Below, piece by piece: positions 27,773-34,453 of a stretch of DNA of 64,000 nt (its first letter is position 1; each line of letters opens with the position of its first letter). Source of the DNA: Deltaproteobacteria bacterium (lineage in GTDB: Bacteria; Myxococcota; JADLHZ01); NCBI GenBank assembly GCA_020848545.1, contig JADLHZ010000122.1:1-64000 (forward strand). The letters are read 5' to 3'. The position numbers and the translations under genes were made by a program. The notes beneath the pieces were generated by a model that was not told where the DNA came from, made no database searches, and saw only the letters and a list, made by a program, of their open reading frames with translations.

Positions 27773-27797
27773 GAGCCGTGCTATCGTCTCTTTGGGG

Positions 27798-29084
27798 ATG
27801 AAGAAGAAAGACACCGTCCGCATCGAAGAGCCCGCAAGCACCAGCGGCGACGAGGGCAGCGCCGTGCTCATCACCGTGCACGGCCCGGTCCTGCGATCGC
27901 GCGCGATCACCGGGCCGACCGTGATCGGCCGCGAGCCTGCCGGAAAGAACGACTGGCCGATCGACGACGAGAAGATGTCGCGCATGCACGCGCGGATCGA
28001 TCGCAAAGGCGGCGCGCTCACGGTCGAAGATCTCGGGAGCACGAACGGCGTCTTCGTCAACGGTGTGAAGGAAGCGAGCGCCACGCTCGAGCTCGGCGAC
28101 GTTTTGCGCCTCGGCGACTCGGTGTTCGTCTACGACCTCGACGTACCGGGTGACGTACCGGTGCCGGTCGAGATCGTCGCGCGCTCGGCGGCGATGAGGC
28201 AGGTGATCAAGAAGGCCGATCGCGTGGCGCGCTTCGACGCGGCGGTGATGCTGCTCGGCGCGAGCGGCACCGGCAAGGAAGTGCTCGCTCGCTTCATCCA
28301 CGAGCGCAGCGGACGCAAAGGCCGCTTCATCGCGATCAACTGCGCGGCGCTGCCGAGCGAGCTCGTCGAGGCGACCTTGTTCGGCCACGTGAAGGGTGCG
28401 TTCACCGGCGCCGACAAAGACAGCCCCGGCCTCTTCGCCGAAGCGGACAAAGGCACGCTCTTTCTCGACGAGGTGGGTGAGCTACCGCTCGCGCTCCAAC
28501 CCAAGCTTCTGCGCGTGCTCGAGACCGGCGAGCACATGGCGGTCGGCGGCAGAAAGAGCGAGCGCTCGGACGTGCGCATCCTCTCGGCGACGAACGTGGC
28601 GTTGAAGGCCGCGAGCGAGGCCGGCCGCTTTCGCCCCGATCTCTACGCGCGCCTCTTCGGCTATCCCATCGAGCTGCCGCTCCTCTGCGAGCGCCGCCTC
28701 GACGTCTTGCCCTTGTTCAACGCGTGTGTCCGAGAACGCGCGCTCGGCGCCGACTTCGTCGAAGCGCTGCTCTGCTACGACTATCCGTTGAACGTGCGCG
28801 AGCTGAAGGCGCTCGCCCAACGCGTCTTGATCGGTGCCGAGGGCGATCGACCGCTCACGCGCAAGGACTTCGAGGCCGCGCTCGCGCTCGAGTCGCCGGG
28901 GGCGGCGCCAAAGAGCGACGCGCGATCGCGGACGCGGGCGCCATCGAAGGCCGATCTCGTCGCGCTCTTGCAGTCGACGTCCGGGAACGTCGAAGCGGTG
29001 GCCGCGCAGCTGCAATGCCACCGGCCGCAAGTCTACCGCTGGCTCAAGCGCTACCAGCTCGATCCCGACGCCTATAGAACCTAG
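27798..29084 (+). CDS. FHA-domain sigma-54-dependent transcriptional activator
   Basis: A 428-residue bacterial enhancer-binding protein. The N-terminal FHA domain (~40-115: VIGREPAGKNDWPI, MSRMHARI, DLGSTNGVFVNG) reads phosphothreonine. The AAA+ domain has Walker A GASGTGKE (154-161), the sigma-54 contact loop GAFTGA (200-205) and Walker B GTLFLDEVGEL. A C-terminal Fis-like HTH (~385-420: GNVEAVAAQLQCHRPQVYRW) binds DNA. This architecture is common in myxobacteria and lets Ser/Thr kinases control sigma-54 promoters; kinases at 11.6 and 59.6 kb are possible but unproven inputs. It ends one base from the convergent esterase gene. Confidence 0.92.
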   Translation: MKKKDTVRIEEPASTSGDEGSAVLITVHGPVLRSRAITGPTVIGREPAGKNDWPIDDEKMSRMHARIDRKGGALTVEDLGSTNGVFVNGVKEASATLELGDVLRLGDSVFVYDLDVPGDVPVPVEIVARSAAMRQVIKKADRVARFDAAVMLLGASGTGKEVLARFIHERSGRKGRFIAINCAALPSELVEATLFGHVKGAFTGADKDSPGLFAEADKGTLFLDEVGELPLALQPKLLRVLETGEHMAVGGRKSERSDVRILSATNVALKAASEAGRFRPDLYARLFGYPIELPLLCERRLDVLPLFNACVRERALGADFVEALLCYDYPLNVRELKALAQRVLIGAEGDRPLTRKDFEAALALESPGAAPKSDARSRTRAPSKADLVALLQSTSGNVEAVAAQLQCHRPQVYRWLKRYQLDPDAYRT

Positions 29085-29085
29085 G

Positions 29086-31014
29086 CTAGCGCAAGGTACG
29101 GTAGCTCTCGTCCACGTGGGTGACGAGCTCCATGAACGCGCGCTCGTACGGCGTTTCGTCGCCCGGCGTATAACCGGAGCTGTCGACGTAGAACGAGCCC
29201 TGGTGGCACTCGCGCTCCCAGCCCGCCTGACTGCCGTGGCTCGCGCCGGCATCGTCCTTCTCGGTGCAAGCGCGCGTGCCGTCCTCGTGGCGGAAGCAGC
29301 AGCGCCCGTCCACGTAGACGATGATCATCTTGCGCATGCCGTAGCGCGCGTCGGCCATGAACGGATCGAAGATGAGGCTCATCATCAGCATGCCGTTGGC
29401 GCCGGTCGCCTGCATGCCGTAGCCGTGGAGCAGGTAGAGCACGGGATAGCGCTCGTCGTTGCCGGGCGCGTCGTACCCTGGCGGCAAGAAGATGCCGTAC
29501 TCGCGATCGGCGCCGAGCGCGCTCGACGTGTACGTGCGCTCCAACATGCGCTCGCCGACGCCGCTGCCGCCGCTCGGCGTCTCTTTCGTCTCCGCCGCCG
29601 GCCACCGTGACGACGCCCAGCCGACGAGCAACATGAAGCGCTGCGCCACCTGCTCGGCGGTGCCGACGTGACCGCCGTCGCCGTCGGCGATCTCTTCGAG
29701 CGTGGGCTCGTCCTTGCCGTAGTGCACGAGCACGTTCGGCGGCAGCTTGCGCCACGGCACGCGCGTGCCGTCGAAGTCCGCGCTCTTCGTCAGCTCCTTC
29801 GGCTCGCGCACGATCAGCGTGTCGTTCGGCCGCGCGCGCTGCACGGCGTCGAAGAGCACGTCGGCTTGCACACCGAAGTTGAAGACGTCGCGCACGCCGC
29901 CGTCGGCGTAGAGATCGAGGCGCTGCTTCAACCCGTCGGGCCAGCGGTTGAAGCGCGTGCGTGGATCATGGGCGCCGATCTTCAAACGCGCGGGGCTCAT
30001 GTCGTACTTGCCGTTGCCCTCGCCGAAGTCGCCGGTCTTCGCCACGCCGTCGAGGCCGAAGTCTTCGTAGGGCTCGCCGTCGTCGTGGATCCAGTTGCCG
30101 TTGCGATCCTCGTAGCGCTCGTAGGCGTTCATCAAGATCGGCTCGCCGTAGTCGCGGCGGCCGTTCTGATTCATGTCGAGCGCGAGCGCGAGCGGGAACA
30201 AGCGCGTGTGCTCGCGGCAAGGATCGTAGCGGCCCTTCTCGGCGAAGTACGCGGGCAAGAACGCGTCGCCCTTCGTCGTGACGACCGGCTCCGTGCCACA
30301 GTAGCGCGCCGCGAAGGCCGCTTCGTCCGTCTTCGCCACGACGTGCGCGCCCTCGCCGCAGAAGTCGACCGCGCGGCCGCTCGTGCCGCACACGTAGATC
30401 GGATCTTCTTCGCCGTCGCAGAAGGTGATCGCATCGTAGCGGCCGTCGGCGTTGTACTCCTTGTTGTAGAACGCGGGCACGACGATCGGCGCCTTGCAGA
30501 TGTCTTTTGGCGGATGCCGGATCACTTCTGGATCGACGCCCGGCGGTGCGATGGGCGAGGCGTCGTTGTGATAGAGCGGGTTGCCGAACGCGAGCGTGAG
30601 ATCCGAGAGCATGCGGATGTACGCCGTGCGATCGAAGGTGCCGCCGCTCGTGCTGAAGTACCAATGCGAGAAGCTCTGCTCGTGCTCGTTCGGCAGCTCG
30701 GCCGGCACCGGGCCCATGCAGTGCGCGAGCGCCGCCGGGTCATTGAGCGCGAGCGGGCCCTGCGCATCGACGACCGCTTCGAGATCCGCGCGCGAGCAAA
30801 AGCCGCCGAAGAGCTGCCGCTCGATCGCGCGCCCGAGATACGCGGCGTCCATCGGCCCGCCGAGCGCGGCGACACCGTCGAAGTCCATCGGGTGGCGAAA
30901 GCCGAGCGCGGACGCGCCGATCGCGCCCATCGAGACGCCGCCGATCAAGCGGTAGGTCGTCTTGTCGAAGCGGCAGGCGGACAAGAGCAGCAAGCAGAGA
31001 ACAGCGCGCTTCAT
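29086..31014 (-). CDS. esterase-like lipoprotein, apparently circularly permuted
   Basis: A 642-residue lipoprotein (signal LCLLLLSAC, Cys14). The alpha/beta-hydrolase elements appear in permuted order. The nucleophile elbow comes first (GGVSMG, S28), directly after the anchor. Candidate acid D371/D376 (LDLYADGGVRD) and His449 (DGDGGHVGT) follow. Only at residues ~504-642 come the strands that normally start the domain: REYGIFLPPGYD, oxyanion-type LLHGYG, MIIVYVDGRCC, ending in VTHVDESYRT. A long middle insert has Cys-rich and EF-hand-like loops (DMNQNGRRDYG). The ATG overlaps the upstream fragment's stop (ATGA). Confidence 0.75.
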   Translation of the reverse strand: MKRAVLCLLLLSACRFDKTTYRLIGGVSMGAIGASALGFRHPMDFDGVAALGGPMDAAYLGRAIERQLFGGFCSRADLEAVVDAQGPLALNDPAALAHCMGPVPAELPNEHEQSFSHWYFSTSGGTFDRTAYIRMLSDLTLAFGNPLYHNDASPIAPPGVDPEVIRHPPKDICKAPIVVPAFYNKEYNADGRYDAITFCDGEEDPIYVCGTSGRAVDFCGEGAHVVAKTDEAAFAARYCGTEPVVTTKGDAFLPAYFAEKGRYDPCREHTRLFPLALALDMNQNGRRDYGEPILMNAYERYEDRNGNWIHDDGEPYEDFGLDGVAKTGDFGEGNGKYDMSPARLKIGAHDPRTRFNRWPDGLKQRLDLYADGGVRDVFNFGVQADVLFDAVQRARPNDTLIVREPKELTKSADFDGTRVPWRKLPPNVLVHYGKDEPTLEEIADGDGGHVGTAEQVAQRFMLLVGWASSRWPAAETKETPSGGSGVGERMLERTYTSSALGADREYGIFLPPGYDAPGNDERYPVLYLLHGYGMQATGANGMLMMSLIFDPFMADARYGMRKMIIVYVDGRCCFRHEDGTRACTEKDDAGASHGSQAGWERECHQGSFYVDSSGYTPGDETPYERAFMELVTHVDESYRTLR

Positions 31015-31361
31015 GGAAAGAACTCGCAATCGCCGCGCGCGAAGCACGGATCGTCGGTGAGGTGCGCGCCGTTCGAGCGAAAGAACTCGCCGACGAAGTA
31101 GATCATGTAGCGGTTGATATCGAAGGCGCTCTTCGGCTGCGGCAGACCGAAGCCGTGCTTTCCCTTTGGCGCGACGTAGGGGATGCGCATGCCGGAGAAG
31201 CCGCTGTCATGCGCGATCGTCGCGCGCAAGGGTGGATCGAGGCGAAAGGTCGCAGGAAAATCCGGCGCGTCGGTTTGTGGTCGTCCGCGATCGCGCCAAA
31301 GCTCACAGATCGAGCCGGTAGACCTTCGAGCCTTTCGTGTCGACGAAGTAGATCTTCCCAT
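31011..31361 (-). pseudogene. C-terminal fragment of an alpha/beta-hydrolase-like protein
   Basis: An open frame of ~116 codons without a convincing start. Its first ~20 codons overlap the end of the propeller gene in another frame. The last ~70 residues look like the end of an alpha/beta hydrolase: GFSGMRIPYVAPKGKHGFGL (possible catalytic His), DINRYMIYFVGEFF, LTDDPCFARGDCEFF. The stop overlaps the ATG of the esterase gene, as in an intact operon. I read it as the 3' remnant of a gene whose 5' part was lost; a short real gene is the alternative. Confidence 0.4.
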
Positions 31362-32256
31362 CCGGAGCGCTGGCGATGCCGGCGAGCGATCCGGCGACGA
31401 GGCCGGTCTCGTAGATCGCGGTCGGCGTGCCGTTCTTCTCGAAGACGTGGATCTTGCCGGTCTTGTTGTCGGTGACCCAGAGCTTGCCGCCGATGATCGC
31501 GAGGCCGCTCGGTCGATCCAGCGTGCCGGCCGCGACGATCGTGGTGATCGTCGCGTTGTGCACTTCGCGGAACATCGCCAGGTTGTCCATGTTCAAGTAC
31601 GGATCGCCGTAGACGATGTTGATGTTCTTCGTGTCCTTCGTGCCGCTCGCCGTGTTCATCGCGATGACGCGCTTGTTGCCGGTGTCGGCCACGTAGAGCG
31701 TGGTGCCGTCGAGCACGAGGTGGCTCGGCACGCCGGCCAAGCGCTTCACCTCGCCCGAGGCGTAGCGATAGATCTCGCCGTCCGAGTGGTCGTCGTTGCC
31801 CGGGCCGTGATCGACGTGAAAGTCGTAGAGATCGAGCGAGCTGTAGAAGCCGTTGAACACCCAGTAGCGATTCTGGTCGACGTGGGTGATGCCCATGCAG
31901 AACGGCGTCGCGTGCAGCATGTCCAGGTGCGATCCCAACCCTGTGCCGTAGCTCTTGCCGAACACGTTGAAGTCCGCCGAGTACAAGGACGGGCCCATGA
32001 AGTGATCCGAGCGATCGTTCTCGCCGCACGCACCCCAGGCGTTCGCCGCGCCCATCGCGATGCCGGTCGGGTAGTGCATGAAGTGCAGGTTCGCGTTGTC
32101 CGAGTCCTTCTTCACCGTGACCGTTTGCGACGGCAGGCCGGGGTTCGTGATCTTCACGACCTTGTCGTCGGTGTTGTTGACGACCCACAGCTCGTTCGTG
32201 GCGCCTGTGTCTTTGCGAAAGTCGAGATCGCTCGGGCCGTTCAAGCCGCCGGCCAT
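31303..32256 (-). CDS. NHL/beta-propeller-like protein
   Basis: A 317-residue protein of repeated four-strand blades (ELWVVNNTDDKVVKITNPG, TTLYVADTGNKRVIAMNTAS, GKLWVTDNKTGKIHVFEKNG, GKIYFVDTKGSKVYRLDL), as in NHL-type propellers. Such domains usually bind ligands or partners outside the cell. No signal peptide is visible at either possible start (32256 or 32316), which is odd for this family and suggests a lost N-terminus. It is divergent from the OmpA/TSP3 gene. Confidence 0.7.
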   Translation of the reverse strand: MAGGLNGPSDLDFRKDTGATNELWVVNNTDDKVVKITNPGLPSQTVTVKKDSDNANLHFMHYPTGIAMGAANAWGACGENDRSDHFMGPSLYSADFNVFGKSYGTGLGSHLDMLHATPFCMGITHVDQNRYWVFNGFYSSLDLYDFHVDHGPGNDDHSDGEIYRYASGEVKRLAGVPSHLVLDGTTLYVADTGNKRVIAMNTASGTKDTKNINIVYGDPYLNMDNLAMFREVHNATITTIVAAGTLDRPSGLAIIGGKLWVTDNKTGKIHVFEKNGTPTAIYETGLVAGSLAGIASAPDGKIYFVDTKGSKVYRLDL

Positions 32257-32365
32257 GGAGCGGAGCGCGTTAGCCGAGGGGGCCGCGAAACGTAAAGGAA
32301 AAATGCGGCGCGGCACGCGTCTGACACTTTCTTTCCACCCGCCAAGGCTGTGTTATCGATAGAGG

Positions 32366-34453
32366 ATGCGGCGCATTCTCTGTGCCTTTTTCTTCGCGAT
32401 TTTCGCGGGAACGGCGCACGCACAGACGGTCGACGAGCCCCGCACTTACCCTGCCGAGCGCATGCGCCTCGCCGTCGACCGCCAGGGCCTGCTCGACGTC
32501 GAGTGGGGCTCGGTCATCTCGCATCTGTCCTGGGATCTCGGCATGTGGGCCGGCTTCGCCAAGAACCCTCTCGTGCTCTACCGGACGAGCGACGGCCAGC
32601 GTATCGGCGCGCTCGTCTCGGATCGCGTGGGCTTCGGTCTCACCGGCGCCATCGGCTTCGCAGATTGGATCGAGATCGGCTTCGAGCTGCCGCTCGTCTT
32701 CTTCCAGAACCGGCCGCAGTCGCAGTCCGAGATCTCGGCGCTGCCGTTCCAAGCGCTGTCGGCCGCGAACGTCGGCGATCTGCGCCTGGTGCCGAAGCTG
32801 CGCATCTTGCGCTCGGATCTGCAGGGCATCGATCTCGCGCTGATCTTCGGCGCCACGGCGCCGACGGCGCAGCGGAAGGACTACCAAGGCGAAGCGAACT
32901 TCACCTTTCAACCGGAGATCGCGCTGTCGCGGCAGATCTACGGCTTGAAGCTCGCGCTGAACGCCGGCGCCGTCGTTCGCCAGGCGACGGTGTTTCTGAA
33001 CCAAACGGTCGAGCACGAGCTCACGCTGCGCGGCGGCGTCGGCTACCACCTGAAGGCGCACAACCTGCCCGCGTTCTTCCTCGACGTCACGGTGTTCGCG
33101 TCGACGTCGCTGCTGCGGCCGTTTCGTTCGTTCAACCAGACCGCAGTCGAGCTGAAGGGCCAGCTCGGCTACGAGATCGCGCACCACGTGGCGGTGTTCG
33201 TCGGCGGCGGCGTCGGGCTCACGCGCGGCTGGGGCATCCCCGACTGGCGCGTCTTCGCGGGCGTGCGCGTCGGTGACGTCAAGCAAGCCAAAGACAGCGA
33301 TCGCGACGGCTTGAACGACGACGACGAAGCGAAGCTCGGCACCGATCCGAACGACAAGGACACCGACAAAGACGGCGTGCTCGACGGCGAGGAGAGGAAG
33401 CCCGGCGACGACACCGACGGCGACGGCCTCCCGAACGCGCGCGATCCAGACAGCGACAACGACGGCCTGACCGACGGCGTCGAGACGGGCGTGCCGGGCC
33501 TCGATCAAGATCCGAAGACGACGACCGATCCGCTCGTCAAAGACACCGATCGCGGCGGCGTCGACGACGGCGCAGAGGATGCGAACAAGAACGGCCGCCG
33601 CGATCCGCACGAGCGCAACGCCATCGACGGCGCCGACGATCTCGCGCCGATCGACGAGGACCGCGACGGCGTCGCCGACAAGGACGACCGCTGCCAGGAC
33701 GAAGCCGAGGACAAGGACGGCTTCGAGGATCAAGACGGCTGCCCCGAGCTCGACAACGATCGCGACGGCGCCGCCGACAAGGACGATCGTTGCCCGAACC
33801 AGGCCGAGGACAAGGACAACTTCGAAGACACGGACGGCTGTCCGGATCTCGACAACGATCGCGACGGCGTGCCGGATACGCGCGACAGCTGCGGCGACGT
33901 CGCGGGCCACACCGACAATTACGGCTGCCCGGACACCGACCGAGACACGGACGGCGTCGTCGATCGCTTGGACAACTGCCCCGACGAAACGGGCGTGACG
34001 AAGAACTCGGGCTGCAAGGAAGAGCAGCTCGTGGCGCTCGCGGTCGGCAAGGTGGAGCTGAAGGACAAGATCTACTTCAAGCTCGACAGCGACTTCATTT
34101 TGCCGCGCTCGCTGCGCCTGATTAAGAACATCGCCCGCGTCATCAACAACCACCCGGAGCACGGCGTCGTGCGCATCGAAGGTCACACCGACAACATCGG
34201 CGTGCCGAAGTACAACTTGGAGCTCTCGGATCGGCGGGCGAAGAGCGTGATGCGCGCGTTGATTGAGCAGGGCGTCGCGGCTGAACGCTTGATCGCCAAG
34301 GGCTACGGCGAGGGGCGGCCCATGATGTCGAACAAGAACGAGCGGGGCCGGGCGCGCAATCGCCGCGTCGAGTTCATCGTCGTCGGCGGCGCGGCCGACA
34401 TCGAGGCCGAGGCGAGCTCGCTGCCCGATTCTCCGGCGGCGCCGAACAAATAA
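32366..34453 (+). CDS. OmpA-family outer-membrane protein with TSP3 repeats
   Basis: A 695-residue protein. The signal peptide is clear (AFFFAIFAGTAHA). Residues ~25-310 form a beta-barrel-like region. About seven thrombospondin type-3 calcium repeats follow (~312-545, DSDRDGLNDDDE, DNDRDGAADKDDRCPNQAED and similar). The C-terminal OmpA domain (~560-680) has the peptidoglycan-binding motif (IEGHTDNIGVPKYNLELSDR, RAKSVMRALIEQGV). It links outer membrane to peptidoglycan with a rigid calcium-bound spacer. The beta-helix gene follows 42 bases later. Confidence 0.92.
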   Translation: MRRILCAFFFAIFAGTAHAQTVDEPRTYPAERMRLAVDRQGLLDVEWGSVISHLSWDLGMWAGFAKNPLVLYRTSDGQRIGALVSDRVGFGLTGAIGFADWIEIGFELPLVFFQNRPQSQSEISALPFQALSAANVGDLRLVPKLRILRSDLQGIDLALIFGATAPTAQRKDYQGEANFTFQPEIALSRQIYGLKLALNAGAVVRQATVFLNQTVEHELTLRGGVGYHLKAHNLPAFFLDVTVFASTSLLRPFRSFNQTAVELKGQLGYEIAHHVAVFVGGGVGLTRGWGIPDWRVFAGVRVGDVKQAKDSDRDGLNDDDEAKLGTDPNDKDTDKDGVLDGEERKPGDDTDGDGLPNARDPDSDNDGLTDGVETGVPGLDQDPKTTTDPLVKDTDRGGVDDGAEDANKNGRRDPHERNAIDGADDLAPIDEDRDGVADKDDRCQDEAEDKDGFEDQDGCPELDNDRDGAADKDDRCPNQAEDKDNFEDTDGCPDLDNDRDGVPDTRDSCGDVAGHTDNYGCPDTDRDTDGVVDRLDNCPDETGVTKNSGCKEEQLVALAVGKVELKDKIYFKLDSDFILPRSLRLIKNIARVINNHPEHGVVRIEGHTDNIGVPKYNLELSDRRAKSVMRALIEQGVAAERLIAKGYGEGRPMMSNKNERGRARNRRVEFIVVGGAADIEAEASSLPDSPAAPNK

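Follow-up and report, generated by a model that had tools for sequence, protein, structure and literature searches.

Type 2 poly(3-hydroxybutyrate) (PHB) depolymerases have been described as circularly permuted alpha/beta-hydrolases. In the extracellular enzymes of this type, the catalytic triad precedes the oxyanion hole along the chain (PMC2666664). More limited permutations, involving strands 1 and 2, occur in some other members of the superfamily (SE_1780/3fle, PF11187 and PF20591; PMC11878206). The alpha/beta-hydrolase core seems to be permuted only rarely in nature, and we found no paper on a permuted family of CE1/PF00756 esterases in the open-licence literature. Here, we analyse a gene encoding a 642-residue protein in a window of 64,000 nucleotides, i.e. 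the whole stretch of DNA under study (positions 1 to 64,000 of contig JADLHZ010000122.1), from a Deltaproteobacteria bacterium of the phylum Myxococcota (GCA_020848545.1). An earlier note on this DNA had proposed that the gene encodes an esterase lipoprotein whose fold is in permuted order. Our results make it very probable that the protein belongs to the PF00756 family (CE1/esterase-D-like), has a circularly permuted chain and acts as a lipid-anchored, secreted serine ester hydrolase.

The open reading frame (ORF) starts with MKRAVLCLLLLSAC, which carries a lipobox, and continues directly into RFDKTTYRLIGGVSMG, which contains S28. The nucleophile elbow GGVSMG is thus at the N-terminus, right behind the lipid anchor, as the earlier note had described. 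The elements expected ahead of it in an ordinary enzyme (FLPPGYD, LLHGYG, MIIVYVDG and a helix ending in VDESYRT) are all found at about residues 504-642, also as proposed, and the chain stops two residues past YRT. In a Pfam scan the protein matched one family, PF00756 (Esterase), with 30.3 bits, above the cut-off of 22. This match comes as two stretches, and profile positions 1-35 fall on residues 497-541. Scores of 71.7 and 59.7 bits were obtained for the homologues L014 and L005. A phmmer search against solved structures retrieved the feruloyl esterase 7xrt (E = 1.9e-9) in three pieces: residues 492-570 match 31-105, residues 625-640 match 125-140 and residues 19-53 match 144-178. The end and the start of the protein abut head to tail in 7xrt (140/144), with three residues between them. 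The two smaller pieces are weak when taken singly, which is why tests at the level of the family matter. The family profile in native order also covers 7xrt in two pieces, with 479-606 aligned to 24-143 and a junction where 606 falls on 143 and 39 on 145. With this profile, CE1 feruloyl esterases are retrieved at E = 2e-26.

A score above the curated cut-off, a GxSxG elbow, a GxxD acid motif and a conserved His all link the protein to PF00756/CE1. The canonical order of these esterases is strands 1-4, elbow, acid and His, whereas here it is elbow, acid, His and strands 1-4. The protein is therefore a permuted variant of PF00756/CE1, not an ordinary member. It resembles the CE1/PF00756 esterases of known structure (PDB 7xrt, 6rzn and 1jjf, the latter XynZ) in the LPPGY and YPVLYLLHG segments, strand 4, the helix before strand 5, the G-S-M-G elbow and the GxxD acid. 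It differs from them in the circularly permuted order of its parts, in an added insert of about 290 residues with EF-hand-type loops at the position of the cap, and in being a lipoprotein anchored just ahead of strand 5. The permutation explains why domain scans give mere fragments of PF00756 in such proteins.

Undoing the permutation strengthened the match. In its native order, the core profile aligned (hhalign) to a set of canonical PF00756 proteins of the same phylum with a score of 114.9 (E = 5e-16, 115 columns). Once rotated, it aligned to the same set with a score of 190.8 (E = 2.8e-27, 200 columns), in one alignment that runs across the join, the elbow and strand 6 up to the acid motif. 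When we scanned the cut point, the native order and cuts in the region of strand 4 and the pre-strand-5 helix scored about 108-115. A flat maximum of 191 was reached only for cuts from the Asp helix to the start of strand 1. Rotation merged the two PF00756 stretches of L014 into one (profile positions 1-153), with a gain from 71.7 to 79.1 bits; for the window protein, which kept two stretches, the gain was from 30.3 to 39.5 bits. A rotated, insert-free profile of six members matched 7xrt unbroken over 160 residues (106 bits). These alignments show that the elbow part and the C-terminal part are homologous to one canonical domain, and the continuous match after rotation, together with the split PF00756 match and the 7xrt alignment, bears out the permuted order claimed for this esterase.

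The two parts could instead belong to different folds, or be two incomplete hydrolase domains without a shared active site, e.g. remnants or partners in domain swapping. The length of the insert that separates them is in line with this idea, and no three-dimensional model speaks against it. The AlphaFold models, on which no claim is based, were made from three-sequence alignments and are of low confidence (mean predicted local distance difference test score, pLDDT, of 32.4 at full length and of 36.1 for residues 342-642). However, the parts complement each other in the canonical domain without overlap or gap, the triad is invariant across them, and neither of them occurs twice in any homologue. 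We regard this explanation as quite unlikely. Swapping between chains is possible, yet the permutation itself would hold.

The permuted order is conserved. Many of the 58 related genomes encode a homologue with the elbow and C-terminal parts in a single open frame and in this order, and 24 homologues can be aligned colinearly between about residues 18 and 641. A profile search in 195 genomes of the phylum found the family in 59 of them, spread over 42 of 90 genera. To determine the order of parts, we used four sub-profiles, which covered the elbow, the insert, the region of the Asp and His, and strands 1-4. The order elbow, insert, Asp/His and front half was found in 41 distinct frames, some of which are one gene with different locus ends. 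The four remaining insert-bearing frames are that of the window, where the match to the insert is split, and truncated forms of the permuted order. None of the insert-bearing frames within the phylum combines the insert with the canonical order. The earlier note had suggested that homologues with a second complete hydrolase domain would speak against a permutation; the sub-profile search revealed no such domain, and no extra copy of any part, in any of the homologues examined. One could still suspect an artefact of sequencing, assembly or gene calling in this genome, where the upstream neighbour looks rearranged and a 97-residue remnant of a larger gene abuts the esterase gene. The recurrence of the same order in a single open frame across genomes of 42 genera excludes this. 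Judged by these alignments, the permuted order reflects a genuine rearrangement that occurred in nature rather than an error.

The usual origin of circular permutations is a tandem duplication that then loses sequence from its two ends. Tandem pairs of permuted esterases are present at two loci, L121 (G092:C62), where the genes are about 0.4 kb apart, and L124 (G093:C5), where they are 1.6 kb apart. It is possible that these pairs offer a glimpse of the duplication step behind permutations. The window genome itself has a single copy of the gene. No relatives were found in viral contigs. No plasmid record spans 80% of the query and, among the matches listed, the plasmid hits are only partial and concern the strand 1-4 half.

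The residues expected of an active site are retained in the family. S28 is present in all 23 homologues covering that position, D376 and H449 in all 24, and H530 of the oxyanion HG in 23/24. The triad S28/D376/H449 is invariant in the alignment, and the protein is presumably catalytic. The earlier note had placed H449 and either D371 or D376 between the two displaced parts. These positions proved right, and of the two candidate acids D376 is the most likely from the alignments. It is part of a G-x-x-D motif, which hhalign aligns with the GxxD of two canonical esterase sets (YADGGVRDVF with YLDAGSHEFI and FLDCGRRDEF). The other candidate, D371, is less likely, since it is replaced by E in one homologue (23/24 otherwise) and D376 is the residue that fits the motif. 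H449, in GDGGHVGT, is the sole invariant His of the homologue alignment; like the canonical His, it is located between strand 8 and the last helix, in a segment comparable to DDGHRGLDYRYDRSL of the canonical-order esterase L069.

In most alpha/beta-hydrolases a cap or lid is located between strands 6 and 7 (PMC11878206), and this is where the insert lies. It is acidic, has conserved Cys, was seen solely in proteins with the permuted order, and has no match in Pfam or among solved structures (PDB). The earlier note had called it EF-hand-like, and two stretches (residues 280-291, a textbook case, and 303-314) indeed fit the loop spacing DxNxNGxxDxxE with conserved ligands. Further acidic residues are invariant, namely E299 and a cluster after the second loop (D318, D322, D329 and E332, each in 24/24). 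The loops would bind Ca2+. The description of the insert as Cys-rich is also fair: C73, C173 and C199 are conserved in 23/23 homologues. Two further Cys that do not lie in the insert, C572 and C603, are found in 24/24. The conserved Cys probably form disulphides. The insert, with its acidic loops, is better conserved than parts of the core, which could indicate that the family is permuted but non-catalytic, e.g. a Ca2+-dependent binding lipoprotein. Against this, S28, D376, H449 and the oxyanion HG are all retained, which would be unusual in a family of dead enzymes, and we think it unlikely that the family has lost catalysis.

Among known permuted hydrolases, the nearest precedent for this arrangement is the type 2 PHB depolymerase, such as that of Penicillium funiculosum (PDB 2d80), which is similar in having a Ser-Asp-His order and a C-terminal oxyanion segment; in the window protein HGYG (residues 530-533) likewise follows H449. 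One could thus ask whether the family simply belongs to the type 2 extracellular PHB depolymerases. A type 1 polyhydroxyalkanoate depolymerase model of NCBIfam is weakly matched by 15 of the 24 members. Yet a search with the family profile misses 2d80 even at E = 10, in contrast to its match to the CE1 feruloyl esterases, and there is no type 2 model among the NCBIfam matches, although the inclusion of such a model in that library is unverified. Membership in the type 2 depolymerases is thus very unlikely. The family profile shows no detectable sequence link to 2d80, and the family is of a different sub-branch. We know of no EF-hand-type insert in type 2 PHB depolymerases, and no polymer-binding domain was matched in the Pfam scan of the window protein. 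The strong match to canonical PF00756 proteins, when 2d80 is missed at E = 10, argues for a permutation event separate from and independent of that of the type 2 PHB depolymerases. A broader proposal, which we make only tentatively, is that this is a second independent permutation of the alpha/beta-hydrolase core, fixed in much of the phylum, with the anchor directly before the nucleophile strand, and that it would serve to tether the enzyme at the base of its sheet, so that a Ca2+-dependent capped active site faces outwards. SE_1780/3fle, PF11187 and PF20591 are also natural permutations within the superfamily, but there only strands 1-2 have moved, and in reversed direction, whereas here strands 1-4 and their helices have moved as one block that keeps its normal direction.

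The phylum also has PF00756 esterases of canonical order (L069 type), which are close to the permuted family. They match the rotated core at E = 3e-21 (hhalign) and are alike in the acid motif (FLDCGRRDEFNLRWG) and the His segment (DDGHRGLDYRYDRSLAYL). They differ in having the normal order, in lacking the EF-hand-type insert and in occurring in other genomes. In the 58 related genomes, the permuted family is present in 24 and the L069-type canonical family in 18, never together (hypergeometric P = 5e-6, ignoring shared ancestry). The two families may replace each other.

We propose that the old termini were joined by a short variable linker (residues 473-488) and that new termini were opened in the short loop between the pre-strand-5 helix and strand 5. 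Refolded, the parts would make up a single core of the usual kind, in which S28 would act as the nucleophile, D376 and H449 as the acid and the base, and HGYG would form the oxyanion hole; the insert would probably be a Ca2+-stabilised lid shaping the access of substrates. In the alpha/beta-hydrolase fold the catalytic strand ends lie at the edge of the sheet opposite the start of strand 5. Because of this, an enzyme lipid-anchored ahead of strand 5 would be fixed to the membrane at the base of its sheet, and its active site would point outwards. We infer both this tether and the three-dimensional fold. Since the closest solved relatives are feruloyl esterases, our guess by analogy is that the substrate is an extracellular acyl ester, perhaps on a polysaccharide. 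Some points weigh against the proposal of a permuted, active esterase. It rests on sequence, from which activity is deduced, and the AlphaFold models mentioned above are poor. No significant profile alignment reaches H449, and its equivalence to the canonical His is deduced from its place in the order, its motif and its invariance. Finally, no conserved gene neighbourhood points to a substrate; partners are conserved only between two genomes of one genus (L039 and L040) and in a few isolated pairs.

A permuted family of this kind would surprise the structural enzymologist but is within known biology. Having its termini at the nucleophile strand, it indicates that the core tolerates a break there and offers protein engineers a natural permutation site. 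It also raises the question of why an anchored enzyme is tethered at this strand. The lipoprotein assignment comes from the signal peptide and lipobox Cys of MKRAVLCLLLLSAC, read by inspection; the lipobox pattern is present in most homologues. The distance from this Cys to the nucleophilic Ser is 14 residues in the window protein and 22-87 in homologues with a recognised lipobox. By this comparison, the very tight tether of the elbow to the anchor is peculiar to the window copy. The features of the gene are listed in Table 1.

Table 1. Features of the putative permuted esterase gene in the window, with the observations on which each is based.
Feature	Residues	Position	Strand	Basis
Whole gene, probable circularly permuted PF00756/CE1-type esterase lipoprotein	642 aa	29086..31014	-	stop codon 29086-29088
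Predicted signal peptide and lipobox (LLLSAC, lipidated Cys14)	1-14	30973..31014	-	sequence inspection
Strand 5, nucleophile elbow GGVSMG (S28), helix C, strand 6	19-57	30844..30960	-	match to 7xrt 144-178; S28 23/23
Insert at cap/lid position between strands 6 and 7; acidic, conserved Cys	58-350	29965..30843	-	family alignment
EF-hand-type loop 1, DMNQNGRRDYGE	280-291	30142..30177	-	loop spacing; D280 and E291 24/24; N282 and N284 22/24
EF-hand-type loop 2, DRNGNWIHDDGE	303-314	30073..30108	-	loop spacing; D303 and E314 24/24
Strand 7, putative catalytic-acid motif GGVRD (D376), next helix	364-394	29833..29925	-	hhalign to canonical GxxD motifs; D376 24/24
Putative catalytic His in GDGGHVGT, after strand 8	449	29668..29670	-	24/24; order and motif
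Linker from last helix to strand 1, closing the old termini	473-488	29551..29598	-	variable in alignment; plateau of the rotation scan stops just past it
Strands 1-4, LLHGYG oxyanion segment and helix ending in VDESYRT, moved C-terminal	489-642	29089..29550	-	match to 7xrt 31-140; profile 479-606 to 24-143

Directly upstream of the esterase gene, and overlapping its start codon, is an ORF of 97 codons (31011-31304, minus strand). It corresponds to the C-terminus of a family of frames, mostly of about 1000 residues, that are present at 32-49% identity in 16 of 57 related genomes. An NHL-repeat/SMP-30-like beta-propeller ORF on the minus strand (31303-32316) ends at the start of the 97-codon ORF, and its own N-terminus has no evident signal peptide. 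With only a tail left beside an unrelated NHL-repeat ORF, the 97-codon ORF looks like a gene remnant, and a rearrangement or an assembly join near 31304 is possible. On the other side, an FHA/sigma-54-activator-like gene (27792-29084, plus strand) is convergent with the esterase gene, with one base between the stop codons. Further along, 32366-34453 (plus strand) encodes an OmpA-like protein in which thrombospondin type 3-like acidic repeats form a long run; by inspection, this protein too probably binds Ca2+.
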